From: Terriglobia bacterium
GTDB taxonomy: Bacteria > Acidobacteriota > Terriglobia > UBA7540
Direction of reading: 5' to 3'
DNA: 43,592 nucleotides
NCBI GenBank assembly: GCA_035712365.1
Contig: DASTAW010000043.1
Coordinates: 1-43,592, forward strand
Shown: positions 26,405-37,309 of the stretch, piece after piece
Numbering within the stretch: position 1 is the first letter of the stretch
Layout: every line of letters starts with the position of its first letter
Translations under genes and position numbers: made by a program
The notes under the pieces: generated by a model
Seen by the model: the letters and a program-made list of their open reading frames with translations, nothing else
What the model was told of the DNA's origin: nothing
Databases searched by the model: none

Positions 26405-29245
26405 CTAGAGCACCGGCACCGAAGCATCCCTGCCGGACGGTCCGGGTTGCTGGTCCAGGAGCGCGGCCAGAGCCTGACCTGTGAACGACTTTTCCACACA
26501 CGCCACCTCTTCAGGTGTTCCCTGGGCTACGATGCGACCGCCTGCCTCGCCGCCCTCAGGACCCAGATCGACAATCCAGTCAGCCTGTTTGATGACATCG
26601 AGGTGGTGCTCGATGATGATGACGGTGTTGCCCAAATCTGTCAAGCGGTTAAGGACTTCGAGCAACTGCTTGACGTCGTCAAAGTGCAGGCCGGTTGTGG
26701 GTTCGTCCAGAAGGTATAGCGTGCGGCCGGTCTGGCGTCGGCTAAGTTCGCGAGCGAGTTTGATTCGCTGAGCTTCACCGCCGGAGAGAGTCGTGGCGGC
26801 CTGACCCAGATGAATGTAACCCAGCCCGACATCCTCGAGGGTCTGCAACTTCTGCCGGATTTGCGGTATGTTTTCGACAACGGGCAGCGCGTCAGTGACT
26901 GTTGTATCCAGCAGGTCCGCGATCGAATAGCCTTTGTACTTGACGGCAAGGGTTTCCGTATTGTAGCGGCGCCCGTTACAGACTTCGCAAGTCACAAACA
27001 CGTCGGGCAGGAAATTCATCACGATGCGCCGCATGCCGTCACCCTGGCAGGCTTCGCACCGCCCGCCCTTGACGTTGAAGCTGAAACGGCCGGCTCGATA
27101 TCCGCGCTCGCGGGATTCCGGCAGCATGGCGAAGAGTTCCCGAATCGGTGTGAAGACGCCGGAATACGTTGCGGGATTTGATCGTGGCGTGCGCCCGATC
27201 GGAGCCTGGTCAATCACGATCACTTTGTCAATTTGCTCAACACCGGCTATTTTGCGATGCTGGCCGGGCTCATCGATGGCCCGGTAAAGCTTACTGGCCA
27301 GCGCCCTGTAAAGGATGTCGTTCACCAGTGTTGATTTGCCCGACCCGGAGACCCCTGTCACCACCACAAGGAGACCCAGCGGAAACCTGACATCAATGTT
27401 CTTCAGGTTATTCGCGCGAGCCCCCAGCACGGCGAGAGACTTCCCATTCGGCGAGCGCCTCTTTTCCGGGACGGGAATGCGACGGGTGCCGGAAAGATAT
27501 TGGCCCGTCAAGGAAGTTTCGCAGACGGCCACCTGTTGCGGCGGTCCACAGGCGACAAGCGCGCCGCCGTGCTTGCCGGCGCCGGGGCCCAGATCAATGA
27601 CGTAATCGGCGCGGCGAATGGTTTCCTCGTCGTGTTCGACCACCAGAATCGTGTTGCCCATGTCTCGCAGCCGCTCGATGGTCCCCAGCAGCCGCCGGTT
27701 ATCGCGAGGATGCAAGCCGATGCTCGGCTCATCCAGCACGTAAAGAACGTCGCGCAGCTTGGAGCCGATTTGTGTCGCCAGGCGGACCCGCTGGCTTTCG
27801 CCGTTTGAAAGTGTCGCGGCCGATCTGTCCAGACTGAGGTAGCCCAGCCCAACGGTATTCAGAAACTCCAGCCGGGCAGCAATCTCGTTCAGGATGCGCC
27901 GCGCCAGCAGCTCCCCTCGCGCGTCCAGCTTGATGCGACCGACGGCCTTCTGAGCTTCGCCCACCGGCAGAGCAGTGAAATCCGCAATCGAAAGGCCCGC
28001 AACTTTGACAGCCAGGCTTTCCTGCCTCAATCGTTTGCCACTGCACTGCGGACAAGGCATTGCGGAGGTGTAGCGCTCAAACCATTCGTGGTAGCTCTCG
28101 GAATTCGTCTCCGTATACCATCGCTCGAGGAGCGGAATGATTCCTGCGAATCCGGCACGGCGTTGCGAACCCCGTTGGCGATTCCCGTAGAGGATCAGGT
28201 TTTGAATCCTGGCGGGAAATTGCTCGAAGGGCGTGCGAAGGTCAAAGCCAACCTGTTCCGCCAGACGAGCCAAGCTCCGCTGAAGATGGCGCGAGCCCGA
28301 CCCCGGACCCAAACCGCCGGCAAACAGTGGCCGCGTCCAGTCCACGACAACTTTGGCAGGATCGAAGGTAAAACGGCTGCCCAGTCCCCGGCACGCTTCA
28401 CAGGCGCCATAGGGACTGTTGAATGAAAATGACCGCGGTTCAAGCGCTGGAATGTTGCTGCCGCAATGGACGCAGGCCCACTCCTGGGAATAAAGGTGCT
28501 CGTCACCGTTCACCACCGTGACCTGGACGATCCCCTTCGCCAGCTTCATGGCCGTTTCGATTGAGGCCGAGAGCCGGCTTTCGACTCCGGGCTTAACCAG
28601 CAACCGGTCTACCAGCACTTCAATGGTGTGGTTTCGCCTGCGGTCCAGCCGAATCTCTTCGTCGAGTTGGAGCAACTGCCCATCGACACGTACCCGGACG
28701 AATCCCTCGCGCCCCAGTTGATCAAACAGGTTGCGGAACTCGCCTTTTCTCCCGCGCACAACGGGCGCGAGAATCATGATGCGCGGGTTCCCATCGTCTC
28801 CGGCCCTGCCAGTCTGGAGCGCCATGATGGATCCCACGATTTGTTCCGTCGTCTGGCGTGAGATGGGCCTCCCGCATTTTGGGCAGTGGGGTACTCCAAT
28901 CGTGGCGTAAAGGAGGCGGAGATAATCGTAGATTTCTGTGATGGTGCCAACTGTCGAGCGAGGGCTGCGGCTGGTGGTTTTCTGCTCGATGGAAATTGCA
29001 GGGCTCAGCCCTTCAACCGCGTCAACGTCCGGGCGCTGTAACTGGTCCAGGAACTGCCGCGCATATGCGGAGAGAGTCTGCGCATATCGGCGCTGCCCTT
29101 CGGCGTAAATGATGTCAAATGCCAGGCTCGATTTGCCTGACCCGCTTAACCCGGTCACCACAGTAAACCTGTTGCGCGGGATCGAGACGTCGATATTCCT
29201 AAGGTTGTGCTGGCGGGCTCCCCGGACTGTAATTTGTTTGAGCAT
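26405..29245 (-). CDS. uvrA: excinuclease ABC subunit A
   Basis: A 946-residue UvrA, the damage-recognition ATPase of nucleotide excision repair, working with UvrB and UvrC. It has two ABC-type halves: Walker [10 protein letters not shown] near residue 31 and [16 protein letters not shown] near 640, with signatures [17 protein letters not shown] and [16 protein letters not shown]. Zinc-binding cysteines are present: [14 protein letters not shown]...[15 protein letters not shown] and CEACQGDGM...[13 protein letters not shown] 29245 fits the conserved start [19 protein letters not shown] and has AGAGGGG upstream; the frame is open 14 codons further. The length is typical. A perfect palindrome at 29371-29384 lies about 125 bases upstream and may regulate the gene. 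Confidence 0.98.
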
Positions 29246-29370
29246 GCAGACACTGCCCCTCTGGCGCGTAACGCGAGTTGAGGGCAATCTACCATCTTAA
29301 AACCTCGCTCACTGTCCGTCAAGGAAGCCGGGGCGTTATGCAGGGCCGGTCTGCTTTTGACAATGTAAAC

Positions 29371-29463: not shown

Positions 29464-30267
29464 TCACTTTTGCGATAGCTGCTTTTCAAGCCGATAGGCC
29501 TTGGAATTGAGCTCACTGAGGTGTTGGAGGTCATTGTCGGTGAGGGAAATGGCGTTCTGGATCATGTCCAGGGCTGGGCCTCCAAATGAGTTGGAATCCT
29601 GCCCGCGGTTGGATGTCAGCATACCACTCATGGTTCGGAACTGGTTGGTGAGATTTCGATAACGGGCCGCGATGGATGTGAGATAGGTTTCCCGGCGACG
29701 GTCGAGGTCCTGCAGGCTTAGCAGGATGTGCTCGCGTTCAGCCACACGGGCGTAGCCTTCGTTGTTCGAGGCACTTAGTTGCTCGTTAGCTTTCTGCAAA
29801 TCAGCAACATGCCGGCGAGAATTTTCAGCCTCGGTTTGCGCCGATTCAAGCTGTTGCTGCATCTTGTCCAATCGGCCCTGCAGTTCATTCTGCATATCCT
29901 GAAAATGCTGATTGGAGGCATCAAGCGCCTTCGCGTTCTCGGTTTTGGAAGCGGAAAGAGTGTCCTGGAGATGTGTGACGCTGGCATTTGCCGCATTCAA
30001 CTGGTCCGTAAGCTGCTTGATGGTGGCGTCGCGCTCCGCAATCACCGCCTGGATATTTCTTTCCGGAGCCGGTTTCCCTGGCCTGGACGCGCCGAGGCGA
30101 AGTTCGCTCTGGCGAAGAGCTTCCTGGCCTTCGCGTAGAGATTGGAGCGCGGCGTCTCGTTGCCGCTGTGCTTCCGCAAGTTGGTTGGACTGGCGGAGAA
30201 TGAAGCCACCCGCAGCCACCAGGGCGACTGCCAAGCCCGATACAACGGCGATTTGCACTCCTCTCAT
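29464..30267 (-). CDS. membrane-anchored coiled-coil protein (third gene of barrel-VWA operon)
   Basis: A 267-residue protein with an N-terminal TM or uncleaved signal (VQIAVVSGLAVALVAAGGFI, about 4-23) followed by about 170 residues of coiled coil rich in Gln, Glu, Ala and Leu (for example NELQGRLDKMQQQLESAQTE). The C-terminal ~80 residues are less regular and end LEKQLSQK. It would project into the periplasm. The start is uncertain: ATG 30267, or TTG 30276, which begins one base after the VWA stop codon and only 4 bases after a GGAG. Either way the gene is tightly linked to the VWA gene. No known domain is recognised; it may act as a spacer or scaffold for the two upstream products. Confidence 0.78.
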   Translation of the reverse strand: MRGVQIAVVSGLAVALVAAGGFILRQSNQLAEAQRQRDAALQSLREGQEALRQSELRLGASRPGKPAPERNIQAVIAERDATIKQLTDQLNAANASVTHLQDTLSASKTENAKALDASNQHFQDMQNELQGRLDKMQQQLESAQTEAENSRRHVADLQKANEQLSASNNEGYARVAEREHILLSLQDLDRRRETYLTSIAARYRNLTNQFRTMSGMLTSNRGQDSNSFGGPALDMIQNAISLTDNDLQHLSELNSKAYRLEKQLSQK

Positions 30268-30277
30268 ACGCAACAAT

Positions 30278-31222
30278 TCACTCCTCTCTGGGCCGAAAAT
30301 ATGGACGCCATGAGATTTGGACCTCCTGACCGTTGCAAGAGGCTTTCAGGCCGACTTGCAATTCTCTGTGACTTTTGCGTGGAACCGATAGAGTCAGTCC
30401 CCAGACATCCGATATGCGTGTGAATATGTGGGAAATCGCCTGCGGAATTTCCGCGGTGGAGCGACAAATGACTGTTTCTCCGCCGGTGTCTTTTGCCAGG
30501 GCGTCGAGGCCATTTTGGTACGCTAGATCGAGCGAATTTTGCCGGTAATGAAGGTGGACCACAAACAATGGCGCTTCCAGGGAGCTGATACGCCGCTCCA
30601 GTTTGGATATCTTCTCATTAATCAGAACGTCCCGGAAGCGCCGGCTAAGATCGTGCGTATCACTCGGATTGATGACGGGATCCGTATAATCTTCACGGTA
30701 GTTATAGATGCTTCCGTCTGTAATGTAAAGCACAGAGACGCGGACCGGCGACTTACGAATCATGGCATCTGCCAGCGACAACGTCGCGCGAAGAGTTTCA
30801 AGCAAACCCGGCGTTCCGCTGCTTGTGAGGGACTGGATCGTGCCAATCACCTTCCGGCGGTCAGCGGTGGGGTCAGCCAGGACGTGTAGTCCGTCCTGCG
30901 CACGGAGCAATCCAACCCACGAATTCTGGGGGAGTTTGGAGATGTTGGTCGCCATGGCCTGCTTCGCGTCGTCGATCCGCGAAAGGTCGCCGGTGAGATC
31001 CAGCACGACCAGGACGACCTGATCGCTGGTCGGAGCCAACGCTTTTTCCACTGTTACGGGGTGACCGTTCAGTGTGGGGCCGAATGTAGGTGTCTCCGCA
31101 CACTTTTCCTGATCGATCCAGGCGGGAATGGAGAACCCCGGAGCCTTTACCTGCGCACGGGCAAGAGCAGTCCCGATCAGCACAAAAAATACGGTTGAGA
31201 GGACAGGAACACCTCTTAGCAT
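30278..31222 (-). CDS. VWFA-related acidobacterial secreted protein
   Basis: A 314-residue protein with a signal peptide (VPVLSTVFFVLIGTALARA, cut before Gln24). The rest is a von Willebrand A-like fold of the acidobacterial type: VVLVVLDLTGDLSRIDDAKQ at about 88-107, NSWVGLLRAQDGLHVLADP, VRVSVLYITDGSIYNY, and a C-terminal beta-rich part. The metal-site motif that would read DxSxS is DLTGD here, so the site is degenerate and metal binding is doubtful. The family is found widely in acidobacteria; its function is not established, but VWA domains usually mediate protein contacts. Its ATG overlaps the stop of the barrel gene (TGATG), so translation is coupled. Confidence 0.88.
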   Translation of the reverse strand: MLRGVPVLSTVFFVLIGTALARAQVKAPGFSIPAWIDQEKCAETPTFGPTLNGHPVTVEKALAPTSDQVVLVVLDLTGDLSRIDDAKQAMATNISKLPQNSWVGLLRAQDGLHVLADPTADRRKVIGTIQSLTSSGTPGLLETLRATLSLADAMIRKSPVRVSVLYITDGSIYNYREDYTDPVINPSDTHDLSRRFRDVLINEKISKLERRISSLEAPLFVVHLHYRQNSLDLAYQNGLDALAKDTGGETVICRSTAEIPQAISHIFTRISDVWGLTLSVPRKSHRELQVGLKASCNGQEVQISWRPYFRPREE

Positions 31223-34017
31223 CAGAAGCTCAAAATCAGCCCTAACTGGATAACCCGCCCTCCCTCCGAGCCGATTATCCTGCCAGCATCAATGTTCGGG
31301 GCGCTTGCCGGACCGATCGTCGTATCGGGGTAGTTCCAGTTGGCATGGTTAAGAATATTAAAGGCTGTGAAGTTGAAATCCAGAGAGGTGCCACCAACCG
31401 GCATGCGCTTGTCCAGACTAATGTCGAACCTGTTTCTGCCCGGGCCCAACAGGTCTGAAAGGGTCCTTGGCCCATCTCCAAGGGTGAAGTCTGCGGGCTG
31501 GGCAAAGGCGGAGGGATTGAACCACTTTGAGGGACCGGGTTCCGCAACGCGGGGATCTACGCCCGGCACAACGTCCACAAACAGGGTGGAGAGCACATCG
31601 CCGGTGTTGTTGAACTGCGGTCGCAACGCGAGTGGCCGTCCGTCATTCCAGTAGGCCATGCCGCTGATCGACCAGCCGCTCACAATCGGCTGTCCCCAGC
31701 CGACGAAGTCGAGCAGCGGTTTCCCGCCTCCGAACGGCAGATTATACATATAGCTGAACTGGATGTATTGCGGCGTGTTGTCTGAAGTTGGCGCCCAATC
31801 ATTGCTGAGGTTGATAAGGTCCTGGTTCCCGTAAGGCCCCGAATAATTGTCGAACGCGCTTGAGAACTCGTAGGTGGCGGAGAACGAGAGGCCGTAGGAC
31901 TCGCGCTTTTCCACCTGGACGTATGCGGACTTGTGCTGGTAGCGGCCCGCAGGATAAAGACCATAGAGCTCGAATGCCTTGAACTGGGGGTAGGGCTGAA
32001 GCGTGAGACGAAACGCCTCGTCATTGAGCCTGTCACGGTAGCGCAGGTAAGCAGGATCGATCGCGTTGGGGGTGGTGGCCCCATCGCCGACCAGGAGATC
32101 TCTGCCGGCGCTGTAGTCTGTTCCCACCGTCAGCACCATTGAAAAAGGTATCTGGCGCTCGACTGTCAACGATGCCTCCCGATAAGCGGGCACCCGGCTG
32201 GTCATATCGACAAAATCCGCGACGGTGTTGTCAGCCGCCGAGGGGCTCAGGTCCGGCAAAGGCGTAGACAGCGGTGGAATGCCGCTTGCCAGTTCCAGCG
32301 CAGGGCTAAGCTGATTGTTCGCGGAGGTAAACGTCTGGCGGGCATTGAATCCTTGTGTGCCCCACTGTCCGTTATACATCGGCATGTGCCCGTGCCAGTG
32401 GTGGAAAGAGGCACGCACGCCAGTCTTGGAATCACCGCCAGGGTTCCATGCCAGTCCCAGTGTGTAGTCAAGATTAACGCTGGAGGGCCGCAGACCGCGC
32501 GAAATCCTGTTGCGGCCGGCAAAAACCAGAGCTCCAAGCCGGCGGGTTGCAGGATCAAGCACCATCGGATCGATGGTGCTTTGACGGTCATACTTTTCCA
32601 CCCGTGGTGTATACCGCTTGAAATTGAAGTCGAGACTAATTGCAACTGTTTTTGACAACTGGTATCTGTCGCCACCCGAGATTGACTGATAGGAATTACG
32701 AAAATACGATGGTGAAGTGATGACGGTACGTTCTGCATACTGCGGCAGGCCTAGGAGAAAGCTGGCGAACGGATCGCCTGTGTTGACGATGCCTGGCAAG
32801 CCCGTCAGGCCTGTGGAAAACTGGAAATAACCAGTTGGGTATTGCGGCGTGTAGGAATTCATCTGGTACTGGTCGGCCTGGAAGGTCAACTGAAGGGAGT
32901 GTTTGCCTTGCTGTGTGGATATCGAGTCTCGGATTTCAACGGCGTTGCGGGCGTTTTGTGAATTCGGGTAACCGGTGCCCATTGACAGATAACTGTCGGC
33001 AAGCTCATAAACGGGGAAAGGAGCCTGTTCGCCGCTCCCGGCTTTTGTCACATCTGATTCCGCCGTTAAATGGACTGAATTGACCGTCCTTGAAGTGGCG
33101 GTAAAATTGTAGCTGATTTCAGCGCGCCACCGCGAGTAGTGCTGGTCAGGGGCTGTAGGACTGGCGAAGTTTGGAAAGTATTTCGGAGCGCTGACGAAGC
33201 CGTTCGAGATGGCCGTTTGGAAACTCAGCCGGTGGCGGGTGCCCACCGACTGATCAACTCTGGCGATGATTCCGTCCGCAGTGTCATACTGTGGCGCATT
33301 GACGAAATAGTTATTTTCGAAGAACGGCCCCACGCTCGCGTTAGGCAGGGGATAAAACGATAGAGCTTGCTGGATCCCCGGCGAAAGTTTGTCAGGGGCG
33401 ATAATGTTTCCTGGGAAAGGCGATCGGAGATATTGCAAGTTGGTGGTCGAAACCGGCAGAGAAGGGTCAAAGGCCGGATTGGAAGCGGTTGTTGCCAAGT
33501 CATAGATGATGAGGGGGTTACCAGCCTGGTCGACCGTCTTTGAAAAGTCTCCGTTGCGTTGGGCTGCTGTGGGAATGGTATGAAGTGAAGCCCGGGAGAT
33601 GGTTTCGCGCACGCCTTCGTAGGACAAAGCGAAGAATGTGCTCTGGGGGTTGTTCACCAGATGCGGAATCAGAACCGGGCCCGATACGTTGAATCCGAAC
33701 TGGTTTCGGTGAAGCGGGGATTTAGTGCCGCCGTTTTGATTGACCTCGTGCGGGATAGCATCGAGAGAATCATTACGGAAATACTCATATACGCGACCGT
33801 GCCAGAGCATCTTGGGGCCAAAGTTTCTTTGGGCCGACGGCGGACTTCCTGGCCGCATGCCCCATTTGCCCGTCAGGACCTTGAATTCTTCTGTCGCTTG
33901 GGTGAGAGGAACTGCTTTACTATCAGCAGATTCAGAGTTTCTTCGAGTGGCTGAGGCAGAAAAGGCAATCGGAACGCTCATGATGAGCCCCAGGAGGGCG
34001 TAGACGAAAATCTTCAT
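31222..34017 (-). CDS. Oar-like outer-membrane barrel lacking carboxypeptidase-like and plug domains
   Basis: A 931-residue protein. A signal peptide (KIFVYALLGLIMSVPIAFSA) is followed by only about 55 residues of low similarity before the barrel motifs typical of acidobacterial Oar-like receptors: GRVYEYFRNDSLDA, PLHRNQFGFNVSGPV, STFFALSYEGVRE, RNGDFSK, and a C-terminal barrel with FNILNHANWNYPD, ending QLGLILSF. Complete members (about 1000-1200 residues, as at 34316-37231) have a carboxypeptidase-like domain and a TonB plug before this point; both are missing. The gene has its own signal peptide, promoter and uninterrupted frame, so it is not a broken copy. ATG 34017 was preferred over an upstream TTG at 34032. 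It heads the operon with the VWA and coiled-coil genes. The substrate is unknown. Confidence 0.88.
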   Translation of the reverse strand: MKIFVYALLGLIMSVPIAFSASATRRNSESADSKAVPLTQATEEFKVLTGKWGMRPGSPPSAQRNFGPKMLWHGRVYEYFRNDSLDAIPHEVNQNGGTKSPLHRNQFGFNVSGPVLIPHLVNNPQSTFFALSYEGVRETISRASLHTIPTAAQRNGDFSKTVDQAGNPLIIYDLATTASNPAFDPSLPVSTTNLQYLRSPFPGNIIAPDKLSPGIQQALSFYPLPNASVGPFFENNYFVNAPQYDTADGIIARVDQSVGTRHRLSFQTAISNGFVSAPKYFPNFASPTAPDQHYSRWRAEISYNFTATSRTVNSVHLTAESDVTKAGSGEQAPFPVYELADSYLSMGTGYPNSQNARNAVEIRDSISTQQGKHSLQLTFQADQYQMNSYTPQYPTGYFQFSTGLTGLPGIVNTGDPFASFLLGLPQYAERTVITSPSYFRNSYQSISGGDRYQLSKTVAISLDFNFKRYTPRVEKYDRQSTIDPMVLDPATRRLGALVFAGRNRISRGLRPSSVNLDYTLGLAWNPGGDSKTGVRASFHHWHGHMPMYNGQWGTQGFNARQTFTSANNQLSPALELASGIPPLSTPLPDLSPSAADNTVADFVDMTSRVPAYREASLTVERQIPFSMVLTVGTDYSAGRDLLVGDGATTPNAIDPAYLRYRDRLNDEAFRLTLQPYPQFKAFELYGLYPAGRYQHKSAYVQVEKRESYGLSFSATYEFSSAFDNYSGPYGNQDLINLSNDWAPTSDNTPQYIQFSYMYNLPFGGGKPLLDFVGWGQPIVSGWSISGMAYWNDGRPLALRPQFNNTGDVLSTLFVDVVPGVDPRVAEPGPSKWFNPSAFAQPADFTLGDGPRTLSDLLGPGRNRFDISLDKRMPVGGTSLDFNFTAFNILNHANWNYPDTTIGPASAPNIDAGRIIGSEGGRVIQLGLILSF

Positions 34018-34039
34018 TTCGGGCTCGTACAAGGCTTAG

Positions 34040-34068
34040 ATTATATACCCCGTGCGCTTCCATGACAA
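34040..34068 (-). promoter_or_regulatory. sigma-70-like promoter of the barrel-VWA operon
   Basis: On the minus strand TTGTCA (34068-34063) and TATAAT (34045-34040) are separated by 17 bases: a perfect -10 and one mismatch in the -35. The predicted transcript start is near 34033, giving a leader of about 16 bases. Confidence 0.75.
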
Positions 34069-34315: not shown

Positions 34316-37231
34316 CTAGAAGTTAAAGCGCGCGAACAGGTCAAGCCTGCGGTTCGCGGAGGGGTTGTTAAAAAAACCACCGGCCAGTGAGTTCGAGCGG
34401 CCAAACAGATAGTCAGGAGACGTCAAACTGCCAACCGGAGTGCCAAGGTTCACCTTGTTGAAGACATTATGGGCCATAACGCCCACCTCAAGCGTAAACC
34501 GCCGGTCGCTGGAACCACCGAAGCGGGGACCGCCTCCGCCGCCGCTGAGCCCGCGGCCGCCAAGCCCTCCATGGTCGCGATGATACCCGCCGCCACCTCC
34601 GCCCTCACCGCGGCCCCCGCCGCCTTCAACTTCTCTGCCGAATCCGAAGGTCTTTGAAAGGCGAGCGTTCATTGAGAATTGGCTGGGGCCAAAGTAGTAG
34701 TTGACAGGGATGAGGGGACCGCCCAGCGTGGGGTTGATGAAGTCGGACTTGACCGGCTGGCTACAGGTGATGCAGGCATCTGAAGCGAAGGCAGGCCTGT
34801 CGTTGAAAATCGAATCTCCGTTTAAGTCCTGCCCAAGGGTGACGCTATAGGGATGCCCGGAAGTGAAGACCAGGAACGGGCTGAACGTTAAGCCGTAAGG
34901 CAGGCTAGTGGAGCCGCCCACGAAAAACCGGTTGCGTGTTACCCAAGGGGCGCTTCCGTAACTTTGAGAGAGATCATACTGGTTCATCGGAAAGGAGCTG
35001 GCTCCGTTTTCGCCTTGAACAGCGTTGGCATTGGCATAGCTCAACGTGTAGTAGCCAAAAAGCGAAACTGCAGCACCCATGCGTATGTTAAAATTCGCGA
35101 TCAACTGGTTCTCGTTGTAAAGCCCCGCATCTTCATACTGGTAAATGTTCCCCACGTTGCCAAAGGGGCGGATGCCACTCGTTGGATCGGCGGGGTCAAA
35201 AGTCCCCGGCAGTGGAGCGTTGATATTGCGGGTGAGAAGCTGATGGATTCCGTGCGTGGTGATGTAAGTGACTGAAGTCTTGATGTTCTTGTTAATTTGC
35301 CTCTCCAGACCAATGGCGCCCTCGATGACGTAAGGCGACTGGAATTGCCGGCTGATCTGGTAGATGGTCGGGAAAGCGGCAGAAGCTGCTATCGAGCTGG
35401 CAGGCGGAAGGCCCGGTGGCAGGAAGTCTGGAGAATTCACAACGAACCGTTGCTGATTAATGCCGTTCAACTGTTCTGCCTGGAGAATATTTTCTGTGTC
35501 CAAGCGGTCGTAGAAGATGCCAGCGCCCGCCCTCAGAACGGTTTTGGGGGCCTTCCCGTGTCCATCGATTCCCCACGCAAGACCGAAGCGCGGTGCGATG
35601 TCAAAGTGGTCCTGAATGTCGGTCTGACCTTCAAAGCGCAAACCAAGCGTCAGAGAGAGATTGGGGAGCGTCCGCCAGTTGTCCTCGGTGTAGAGGGCGT
35701 AATCGAATCGGTTGACCTTGGCAACTGGATTTCCGGTGGTTATCGAGAATTGATTCGCGCCTCCGCCTGCCGCTACAATTTCCTCAGGTGTGAGTCCCTG
35801 GGCAAGACCCTGTTGAAAACTCGAATAGCTCTGGATGCCCGTGAACGTAAAGGTGCCGTTGTAGCCGCTGGTCGAGTTGATAGCCTCATCGTCGAACCGC
35901 ACACGTCCCCCGTAAGTCAGGCTGTGCTTGCCAAAGTTGGTTGATGTAAGGCTCTGGAACTCGTATCGATTTTCAGTGTCTCGGGAAGTTCCGCTGCTGT
36001 TTCCGCCGCCGGTGAAAGCTCCAAGCACACGGATTTCCGGGTCCGTGCTGAAGGGGTTCTGATCGTCCGTGCTGTGGCGATATTCAAAACGGTTCTGCAT
36101 GACGGTCCGGGTACTGATCACCTGGGTGTCGCTAACCTGGACCCGCTGAGAGACAGCGGTGGAGTCATACGCTTGAGAGGGAAGAGAGAACTCCGAGAGG
36201 CCGTCGTTCGTGTCATTGCGCGACCATCGTTGATAACGGACGGACATTACGTTGGTGTTGGTCAACTGGAAGTCCACACGCGGGCTGATGTTCGTCCGCG
36301 ACGAGGGGCTGGGAATAGCCTGGCTGATCTGCATTCCGTTCGGGTTAAAGGCCGGGGTTGGAACGACAGGCGTGATGATAGACGTGCTGTCGCTGCTGCG
36401 GTGGAACATACCGAGGAAGAATGAAAGTTTCTTTCCGAGCGGCCCTCCGAAACTCCCCGCGTACATCTGGGAGTGGTAGCCCGGCTGCGTCGCCACGAAG
36501 GGGTTGCGCGAATTAAAAGACGAGTCGTTGCCGTAGGAAAAGACACTGCCATGATATTTTGAGAAGCCTGGCTTGGTGGTGATGTCGATTCGTCCGTAGC
36601 CCAGCCTCTCATACTGGGCGGAAAACGGATTTTGGTTGACGCGGACTTCCAGAATCGCTTCCTTTGGCGGAAGTTCGCCGCCCGAAAAACCATCGATGTA
36701 AATCTCGCCTCCATTGGGCCCGGCTGCCGGGCCAGCCAGTTGTTGAAGTTCCTCCTGCAGCTCATCGGGATCATCGGAAAGTGACTTCAAAGCTTCTCCC
36801 TTTAGAACCACTGCGCCCACATTCTCTTCAGGGCTGACGCTGAGCTGCTGGCCTTCGCTCTCCACGGTAACCTGCTGCGTCTGCATGGTCAGTGCCAACT
36901 GGGCGTCCACAACCTGCGCGTGGCCGGCTGCAACGTTGATTCCTGCTTTCGTGAACGTTGAAAAGCCCTGTGTGGTGATTTGAACCGAATATTGGCCGGG
37001 CGCGAGATGATGGAAGGTGTAGCGCCCCTGCGCGTCCGTTTGGGCAGCCTTGGTTTGACGGTTGGGACCGGTTAATGTAACCGTCGCCGCGGGAATTACG
37101 GCGCCCGATGGGTCCGTAACCTGACCACTCACTGTGCCGTTGCCTGTCTGTGCGAACACCGCAGCAGAAAAGCAAATTGACGCCAGCAATGCCCAGAGGG
37201 GACGTCTAAACCTTCCTAGCAATTCGTTCAT
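34316..37231 (-). CDS. Oar-like TonB-dependent receptor with glycine-rich insert
   Basis: A 971-residue outer-membrane receptor. A signal peptide (about 1-27, ending AVFAQ) leads to a carboxypeptidase-regulatory domain (GTVSGQVTDPSGAVIPAATV, 31-50), a plug-like part (SLSDDPDELQEELQQLAGPA, IYIDGFSGGELPPKEAILEV, GRIDITTKPG) and a beta-barrel ending LDLFARFNF. Close to the C terminus (about residues 860-915) is a glycine-rich insert with GEGGGGGGYHRDHGG and SGGGGGPRFGG, probably a surface loop. Complete receptors of this kind import bulky substrates such as peptides or glycans. GGAGG lies 8 bases before ATG 37231. The upstream gene (37310-38578), whose product also ends in a glycine-rich run, is 78 bases away on the same strand. 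Confidence 0.92.
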   Translation of the reverse strand: MNELLGRFRRPLWALLASICFSAAVFAQTGNGTVSGQVTDPSGAVIPAATVTLTGPNRQTKAAQTDAQGRYTFHHLAPGQYSVQITTQGFSTFTKAGINVAAGHAQVVDAQLALTMQTQQVTVESEGQQLSVSPEENVGAVVLKGEALKSLSDDPDELQEELQQLAGPAAGPNGGEIYIDGFSGGELPPKEAILEVRVNQNPFSAQYERLGYGRIDITTKPGFSKYHGSVFSYGNDSSFNSRNPFVATQPGYHSQMYAGSFGGPLGKKLSFFLGMFHRSSDSTSIITPVVPTPAFNPNGMQISQAIPSPSSRTNISPRVDFQLTNTNVMSVRYQRWSRNDTNDGLSEFSLPSQAYDSTAVSQRVQVSDTQVISTRTVMQNRFEYRHSTDDQNPFSTDPEIRVLGAFTGGGNSSGTSRDTENRYEFQSLTSTNFGKHSLTYGGRVRFDDEAINSTSGYNGTFTFTGIQSYSSFQQGLAQGLTPEEIVAAGGGANQFSITTGNPVAKVNRFDYALYTEDNWRTLPNLSLTLGLRFEGQTDIQDHFDIAPRFGLAWGIDGHGKAPKTVLRAGAGIFYDRLDTENILQAEQLNGINQQRFVVNSPDFLPPGLPPASSIAASAAFPTIYQISRQFQSPYVIEGAIGLERQINKNIKTSVTYITTHGIHQLLTRNINAPLPGTFDPADPTSGIRPFGNVGNIYQYEDAGLYNENQLIANFNIRMGAAVSLFGYYTLSYANANAVQGENGASSFPMNQYDLSQSYGSAPWVTRNRFFVGGSTSLPYGLTFSPFLVFTSGHPYSVTLGQDLNGDSIFNDRPAFASDACITCSQPVKSDFINPTLGGPLIPVNYYFGPSQFSMNARLSKTFGFGREVEGGGGRGEGGGGGGYHRDHGGLGGRGLSGGGGGPRFGGSSDRRFTLEVGVMAHNVFNKVNLGTPVGSLTSPDYLFGRSNSLAGGFFNNPSANRRLDLFARFNF

Positions 37232-37309
37232 CTCAAAATCCTCCAAAACTTCGCATTCTGATGGAACTTAACCATGATTCCGGTGGGCCGTCTGTTTGAG
37301 AGGCTAGAA

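Follow-up and report, generated by a model that had tools for sequence, protein, structure and literature searches.

What remains for a TonB-receptor barrel to do when its gene encodes no plug? This question is raised by a locus from a Terriglobia bacterium, of which a stretch of 43,592 nucleotides was analyzed (hereafter the window). On its minus strand, three genes follow one another in the sequence barrel, VWA protein, coiled coil. Ahead of them lies the promoter TTGTCA-N17-TATAAT (34040–34068, minus strand), with 11 of 12 consensus matches and the barrel start codon about 20 bases downstream; promoter-like sites number 5 in the region versus 2.2 ± 1.6 in shuffles, and both congeners show it too, the spacers measuring 17 and 18. 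The first gene encodes an Oar-type barrel without a plug of 931 amino acids (31222–34017, minus strand), with a signal peptide recognizable by eye at about residues 1–24. Its reading frame (31222–34032, minus strand) is open throughout, at 937 amino acids, and the likely start is the ATG at 34017 rather than the upstream TTG at 34032, since the latter lies within the short leader and close relatives begin at the equivalent ATG. Barrel stop and VWA start overlap in TGATG (31220–31224, minus strand), so that the genes share one base, the A. The second gene encodes a secreted VWA-fold protein of 314 amino acids (30278–31222, minus strand), and the third an anchored coiled-coil protein of 269 amino acids (29464–30273, minus strand) with an N-terminal hydrophobic segment, a coiled coil, and an Arg-rich C-terminal part. 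By analogy with one related locus (L017), the best start of the third gene is the TTG at 30273, 4 bases past the VWA stop. These features bear out the preliminary description of the locus, which had claimed an uninterrupted barrel gene with its own signal peptide, a near-consensus promoter ahead of it, TGATG coupling to a secreted VWA gene, and a coiled-coil gene within a few bases of the latter.

Downstream, the unit is followed by a gene (26405–29287) which we take, from its sequence, to be uvrA. Its upstream neighbor (34316–37246) encodes an Oar-like receptor of 976 amino acids that carries CarboxypepD_reg and a Gly-rich stretch near its C-terminus; in Pfam, even a threshold of E up to 1 brings up no Plug domain in it. 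This receptor gene lies directly upstream of the unit on the same strand, and the adjacency is kept in both congeners and not in two other genomes (G011 and G020).

The barrel itself is unmistakable in Pfam, where it matches OMP_b-brl_4 (PF25183) with an E-value of 1.8e-128 over profile positions 9–838 of 838; there is no other match at E up to 1, neither to CarboxypepD_reg nor to Plug. Control paralogues from the same genome carry CarboxypepD_reg in 10 of 10 cases and Plug in 7 of 10, and their barrel profile begins at residues 248–276. By our count, PF25183 matches 43 open frames in this genome. Among the frames matched in a single stretch, 35 are covered near end to end; 34 of these measure 1039–1285 amino acids and that of the window 937. 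Length is nonetheless no proof of a plug, as one of the 34 long frames (L126, complete in L144) carries a stretch rich in Gly in its place.

A search with the VWA sequence gave matches in 8 of 41 genomes, own genome included. A VWA profile from an 8-row alignment, run against about 85,000 species genomes, then yielded 160 candidate stretches and 124 relatives, the best 80 of which form the set of loci used here, a set baited with the VWA protein. All 80 are from Acidobacteriota; by NCBI class, 49 belong to Terriglobia and 1 to Blastocatellia, and 30 have no class named. One locus (L032) comes from the named isolate KBS 96. The loci and the genome searches described below overlap in five cases (L016 = G001, L017 = G450, L019 = G011, L023 = G452, and L025 = G020). 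A barrel match is found upstream of the VWA gene in 75 of the 80 loci, with 60 complete barrels, 13 cut by contig ends, and 2 (L048 and L086) broken in assembly.

Among 63 family barrels, an OMP_b-brl_4-type barrel is present in all 63, and none has CarboxypepD_reg or Plug in its first 300 residues (E up to 0.01). For a more sensitive comparison, an HMM of 324 positions was built from 14 ordinary N-termini (14 of 30 fetched paralogues, L126 included). It matches all 62 family barrels found only from position 224–263 on (26 of them from position 230 or earlier), and the window barrel at positions 217–319 of 324 (E 2e-16), from residue 29 on; whole receptors in the same loci match it from position 6–16 on. 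Since the family barrels match only the end of this HMM, the signal region, the NTE, and most of the plug of ordinary receptors are absent from them. What is retained are the last ~35 plug residues, EFKxxTRxLGLRxDSP...WHGRxxENFRND, which stand shortly past the signal peptide in each of the 60 complete barrels from the 80 loci. In the window barrel, the conserved plug-end relic covers residues 36–82 (33772–33912, minus strand), with a helix predicted at low confidence (37–51) and the first barrel strand at 73–82 (WHGRxxENFRND). The mean hydrophobic moment of the relic helix is 0.50, compared with 0.26 ± 0.13 in shuffled sequences (46 of 61 sequences scored). The earlier claim of a short stretch in place of the CarboxypepD-like domain and plug therefore stands as to the absence of both; the stretch, some 45 residues from signal peptide to barrel, is not arbitrary, however, as from residue 29 on it matches the end of the paralogues' N-terminal region. 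The segment that holds the TonB box in Oar, in which residues 118–122 were substituted according to the part of that study considered here (PMC6434023), is also missing from the window barrel. A homologue with a full N-terminus in the same locus, named beforehand as one of two outcomes that would speak against the proposal, was found in 0 of 63 complete barrels.

Nor was a separately encoded plug found: the HMM of ordinary N-termini revealed no plug gene beside the barrel in the 80 loci. The rest of what it matched there consists of paralogous receptors, either entire or truncated by contig ends, and of shorter proteins of CarboxypepD type, in many cases a convergent TPR protein. As an observation in its own right, a secreted CarboxypepD-plus-TPR protein of ~390–420 amino acids is convergent to the unit in 13 of the 80 loci (e.g., L043:3018–4280, minus strand).

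The AF2 model of the barrel (63 sequences; pLDDT 83.8, pTM 0.78) comprises the helix 37–51 at a pLDDT of about 50–66 and then the barrel. Together with structure alignment, it places a TonB-receptor-type barrel domain at residues ~70–931 (31225–33810, minus strand). VIA aligns the model with TonB receptors in their barrel part only (Z of 19.3 to the FhuA model and 18.1 to BtuB). The alignments begin at model residue 68–72, opposite, for example, BtuB 134 and FhuA 158, positions at which the plug has presumably ended. Long loops are modeled at about residues 148–236 and 543–597. In a quick tree, computed without a mixture model and with long-branch warnings, 29 of the 63 plug-less barrels are set apart from 19 longer receptors across one branch with an SH-aLRT of 100; the longer receptors include L126, with its Gly-rich stretch in the plug place, and the tree also contains the window neighbor 34316–37246 without a Pfam Plug match. 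Given that the plug-less barrels fall on one side of this branch, a single loss is the simplest reading, and NTE and plug were probably lost once.

The second gene product is recognized by Pfam VWA_2 (E 2e-7), which matches 39 of 48 VWA family members at E up to 0.01, and its AF2 model (pLDDT 90.6) retrieves VWA proteins in Foldseek. Against TIGR03436 it scores 30.9 bits over residues 58–306, far under the curated cut-off of 81.25, and it is absent from the 12 TIGR03436 matches in its own genome (E up to 1e-5). The metal-site motif reads DLTGD in the window and not DxSxS. Across the family it is D-x-T/S-G-D, with D75 in 79 of 79 sequences, T or S at position 77 in 62 of 79, and D79 in 74 of 79. 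The loop-3 Asp D169 is invariant (79 of 79), and loop 2 in the alignments has, by eye, mostly K/R and A/P versus GT or similar in the paralogues. As a whole motif, the canonical MIDAS (DxSxS, loop-2 Thr, loop-3 Asp) is not found in the family across 79 sequences. The altered metal site was considered as a family hallmark and dropped, because DxSxS is kept in 6 and gone in 6 of the 12 TIGR03436 paralogues of the genome (L132–L143). Loss of DxSxS thus seems common in the expanded TIGR03436 family (6 of 12 paralogues).

A more distinctive feature is a long loop, NYREDYTxPVINxSDxxDLSRRF (residues 174–197; 30632–30703, minus strand), which is strongly conserved in the family. It measures 27 aligned residues in the window versus 9–12 in all 12 TIGR03436 paralogues, where the motif is absent, and it is invariant at P182, V183, N185, D188, D191, and S193 (79 sequences, gaps set aside). 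The model puts it outside the core, at its lowest confidence. That residues stay invariant in the least certain region of the model makes the loop a likely partner-binding (docking) motif. At the N-terminus, a pattern search in 78 sequences (L060 and L019 left out) found a lipobox in none, and 17 of the 78 signals have an RRx-hydrophobic start that is possibly Tat-like.

As to the third gene product, a membrane-like segment is indicated by hydropathy in 70 of 73 coiled-coil proteins, and among 72 complete ones, L034 and L053 are lipoprotein-like and L076 and L080 ambiguous. In the two former (L034:7939–8748 and L053:7865–8674), a lipobox (LAGC and WTGC, respectively) replaces the membrane helix. 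The anchor type can consequently switch, which speaks against a strict tether from inner to outer membrane. The Arg-rich C-terminal part is conserved as RRR..RRYR..RIQ..RQL. Searches for a known family gave generic coiled-coil matches only, those to PDB profiles being mostly generic among the best 60 of 159. Two further loci that have no coiled-coil partner of this family, f8 (L014:5942–8031 and L015:5706–7901) show, by eye, a DUF948-like anchored coiled coil after the VWA gene, and L015 additionally a gene for a YtxH-like protein in this place; these genes might replace the missing coiled-coil partner there.

Is the arrangement fixed? The preliminary description proposed that conservation of the gene order should decide on its reading, and the order is kept: the coiled coil lies downstream of the VWA gene in 72 of the 80 loci by HMM (73 counting L073, added by eye), and all three genes occur in order in 68 (69 with L073). 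The loci without a barrel call are L029, with a fragment where the contig begins, L033 and L083, likewise situated at a contig start, and L060 and L069, in which the VWA gene has other genes upstream instead. The coiled coil is missing despite room in L027, L044, L067, L079, L085, and L090, and the contig of L060 is too short. Of the 74 loci measured (of 75, L019 having been removed by a length filter), 40 have a gap of −1 between barrel and VWA gene, 9 a gap of −4, and 66 one between −10 and +20; from VWA gene to coiled coil, 67 of 73 gaps fall in this last range. These counts lean short, as the starts were picked by a script favoring proximity to the upstream stop. In L090, barrel and VWA gene are 578 bases apart. 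The recurrence of both the N-terminus type and the gene order in dozens of species indicates that the arrangement in the window is no product of chance.

No fourth conserved gene was found, since no flanking family occurs in more than 16 of the 80 loci; an LpxD-like gene, identified by eye, lies upstream on the opposite strand in 15 of them. The candidate function of an anti-phage defense system was rejected: PADLOC (E up to 0.001) gave no match for the barrel, none for the VWA protein, and 3 weak ones to coiled-coil stretches (≤16 bits) for the third protein.

Because the 80 loci had been baited with the VWA protein, a reverse search baited with the barrel was run in 51 genomes of two orders, scoring at most 22 or 80 candidates per genome. 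In the window's own order (40 genomes), family barrels (≥613 bits) occur in 13 genomes, exactly the 13 with the VWA gene and on the same contigs; the next-best barrels reach at most 372 bits and sit in frames of at least 1164 amino acids. In the order of G313 (11 genomes), 9 have a family barrel (≥571 bits), 8 the VWA gene, and none the VWA gene alone. The barrel of G438, where no VWA gene was found, is a fragment. Barrel and VWA matches in this order are about 40 to 1,000 bases apart, and in G435 they lie on separate contigs, with the VWA match 21 bases from the contig start. Combined, 21 of the 51 genomes have both, 29 neither, and 1 a barrel fragment alone. The pair is patchy: it is found in 13 of 40 genomes of the own order, 8 of 11 of the G313 order, a single one of 38 in the G101 class, and at least 5 of 396 in a phylum sample, one of them (G077) weak, with at most 5 candidates per genome scored.

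The pair also occurs without the coiled coil, namely in G028 (L013), where barrel end and VWA gene are followed by a convergent gene, in G031 and G039 (L014 and L015), and in G101 (L147) and G313 (L148), both outside the window's class. Barrel and VWA protein are thus the core, spanning several classes, and the coiled coil a lineage addition that is a partner in Bryobacterales-type loci and the window's group (73 of the 80 loci). Of the fixed three-gene order claimed at the outset, the barrel–VWA pair stands and the coiled coil as a constant member does not, being missing in 6 of the 80 loci with room for it and in distant groups.

A separate receptor of the same genome may be mentioned here. 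On contig C58, an Oar-type receptor (L144:1264–7229) has a CarboxypepD-like start and a long Gly/Gln-rich stretch in the plug place, and is followed after ~100 bases by a TIGR03436 VWA protein of 778 amino acids. This is possibly a second, independent pairing of barrel and VWA protein.

What, then, might the pair do? That the barrel is not a TonB-driven importer, as had been proposed, is well supported, as it lacks the part that in Oar bears plug and TonB box. With no plug, TonB cannot open the barrel in the known way, and we infer that it works without TonB. The reading preferred here, to which we give about even chances, is an outer-membrane complex that descends from a TonB receptor and operates independently of TonB, the VWA protein capping or closing its barrel in trans. 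The wide lumen would otherwise be a hole. The plug relic (~35 residues) would now probably form a short helix leading into strand 1, and the VWA protein would dock from the periplasm via its conserved long loop and cap or gate the barrel. It is the best candidate for closure because it is dedicated to the barrel, co-inherited, and mostly translationally coupled with it. Characterized TonB receptors have barrel diameters of 35–40 Å in the sections of PMC6434023 drawn upon; a VWA domain may be too large for such a lumen, which makes capping likelier than plugging. The same sections report that Myxococcus Oar fails to accumulate when plug and NTE are artificially removed (PMC6434023), so the natural family must have compensated for their loss, perhaps via relic helix and VWA protein. 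The essential work would fall to the pair, with the coiled coil as an accessory that may attach this complex to the inner membrane or, if lipoprotein-like, to a lipid leaflet. Several points count against this closure in trans. The site of action of the VWA protein could be extracellular, or the lumen could be closed by the barrel's own long loops or N-terminal helix; tight coupling is not universal (G313 order and L090), and L060 and L069 carry the VWA gene without an adjoining barrel.

A more ambitious proposal extends the complex to a trans-envelope machine of a new class, a TonB-independent conduit in which a VWA gate replaces the plug and is worked from the inner membrane via the coiled-coil tether. 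This is put forward tentatively, as possible more than probable. If true, it would represent a gated importer turned into a partner-gated pore or exporter across several Acidobacteriota classes.

Surface adhesion offers a different role for the same partners, one we regard as rather unlikely: the barrel would deliver or hold the VWA protein at the surface, and the coiled coil would provide its link to the inner envelope. Binding of extracellular ligands is common among VWA folds, and with no lipobox in any of the 78 VWA proteins the barrel could be the retaining partner. A precedent, as far as the portion of PMC13104615 used here goes, is CglB, a VWA adhesin retained by the Glt complex of Myxococcus. 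However, the protein of the window family is small and strongly constrained, unlike a fast-evolving adhesin, and since 17 of 78 signals are possibly Tat-like, some may fold before export. Its altered metal site (D-x-T/S-G-D) also speaks against adhesion, weakly, as half of the TIGR03436 paralogues are without DxSxS too.

Distinctly improbable is an export pore, in which an open barrel releases a protein or polymer with the VWA protein as receptor and the coiled coil as inner-membrane link. Oar-type barrels can serve secretion, Myxococcus Oar being needed for secretion of PopC in the passages at hand (PMC6434023), and a membrane-anchored coiled coil could act as an adaptor. Yet the same passages state that an Oar variant without plug did not secrete and that TonB-box changes reduced secretion (PMC6434023). 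Moreover, no further flanking gene recurs beyond the limit given above, and other groups lack the coiled coil. A passive porin, a wide diffusion channel that admits large nutrients and is constricted by its own loops, with VWA protein and coiled coil as assembly factors, is very improbable. No plug is left and the long loops (about 148–236 and 543–597) could fold inward, but a porin alone leaves the near-perfect co-occurrence of barrel and VWA gene and the invariant VWA loop unexplained. Finally, there is next to no chance that the barrel is a TonB receptor in decay or wrongly assembled, through a missing 5′ end, a frameshift, or a fault of assembly. The genome does abound in ordinary Oar-type receptors. 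Against this reading, an own signal peptide and a like N-terminus are common to 60 of 60 complete homologues, which rules out a pseudogene, a lost 5′ end, or an assembly error; the promoter lies directly upstream, and the mean column identity is 57% across the 63 family barrels.

The barrel–VWA family is real and, within the open-access literature searched, undescribed: no description of such a unit was found in the titles and abstract openings of that literature. The plug is the defining feature of TonB receptors. A survey of 34,893 TonB receptors counted, by the definition given in the part consulted, only proteins with barrel and plug (PMC6434023). As such surveys require a plug, a natural plug-less family would escape them. 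Returning to the complex closed in trans, the gene set suggests that many soil acidobacteria possess a gate or anchor unlike classic TonB-driven importers. A conserved plug-less family with a dedicated partner is a natural experiment on the purpose of the plug and on the means of keeping a wide barrel shut in its absence. It informs how importers may become exporters or anchors, and offers a way into the large sets of Oar-type receptors that soil Acidobacteriota carry.

Among the closest known systems, the Oar-type TonB-dependent transporters (PF25183) have the same barrel family end to end and the same fold as the solved barrels of TonB receptors. The window family differs from them in having no NTE (CarboxypepD_reg), no plug save its last ~35 residues, and a dedicated VWA gene. 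The VWA protein resembles TIGR03436 members in its VWA fold with an N-terminal strand region, a weak match only; it stays far under their cut-off and has the long loop NYREDYTNPVINxSDxxDLSRRF. A TonB-receptor barrel can remain folded without its plug, as SusC (Bt1763) does in vitro after the plug is cleaved or ejected. In the account available from that source (PMC7782687), proteolysis or a presumed detergent effect removes the plug, whereas in the window family its loss is encoded and conserved. By function alone, the VWA protein can be likened to CglB, held by the outer-membrane Glt complex (PMC13104615, within the portion cited above). LptD and LptE likewise serve as a precedent of function alone, in that a partner in trans partly fills the lumen of a large barrel; in the portion of PMC10567701 referred to, LptD forms a barrel of 26 strands and LptE belongs to the lipoproteins, unlike the pair in the window.
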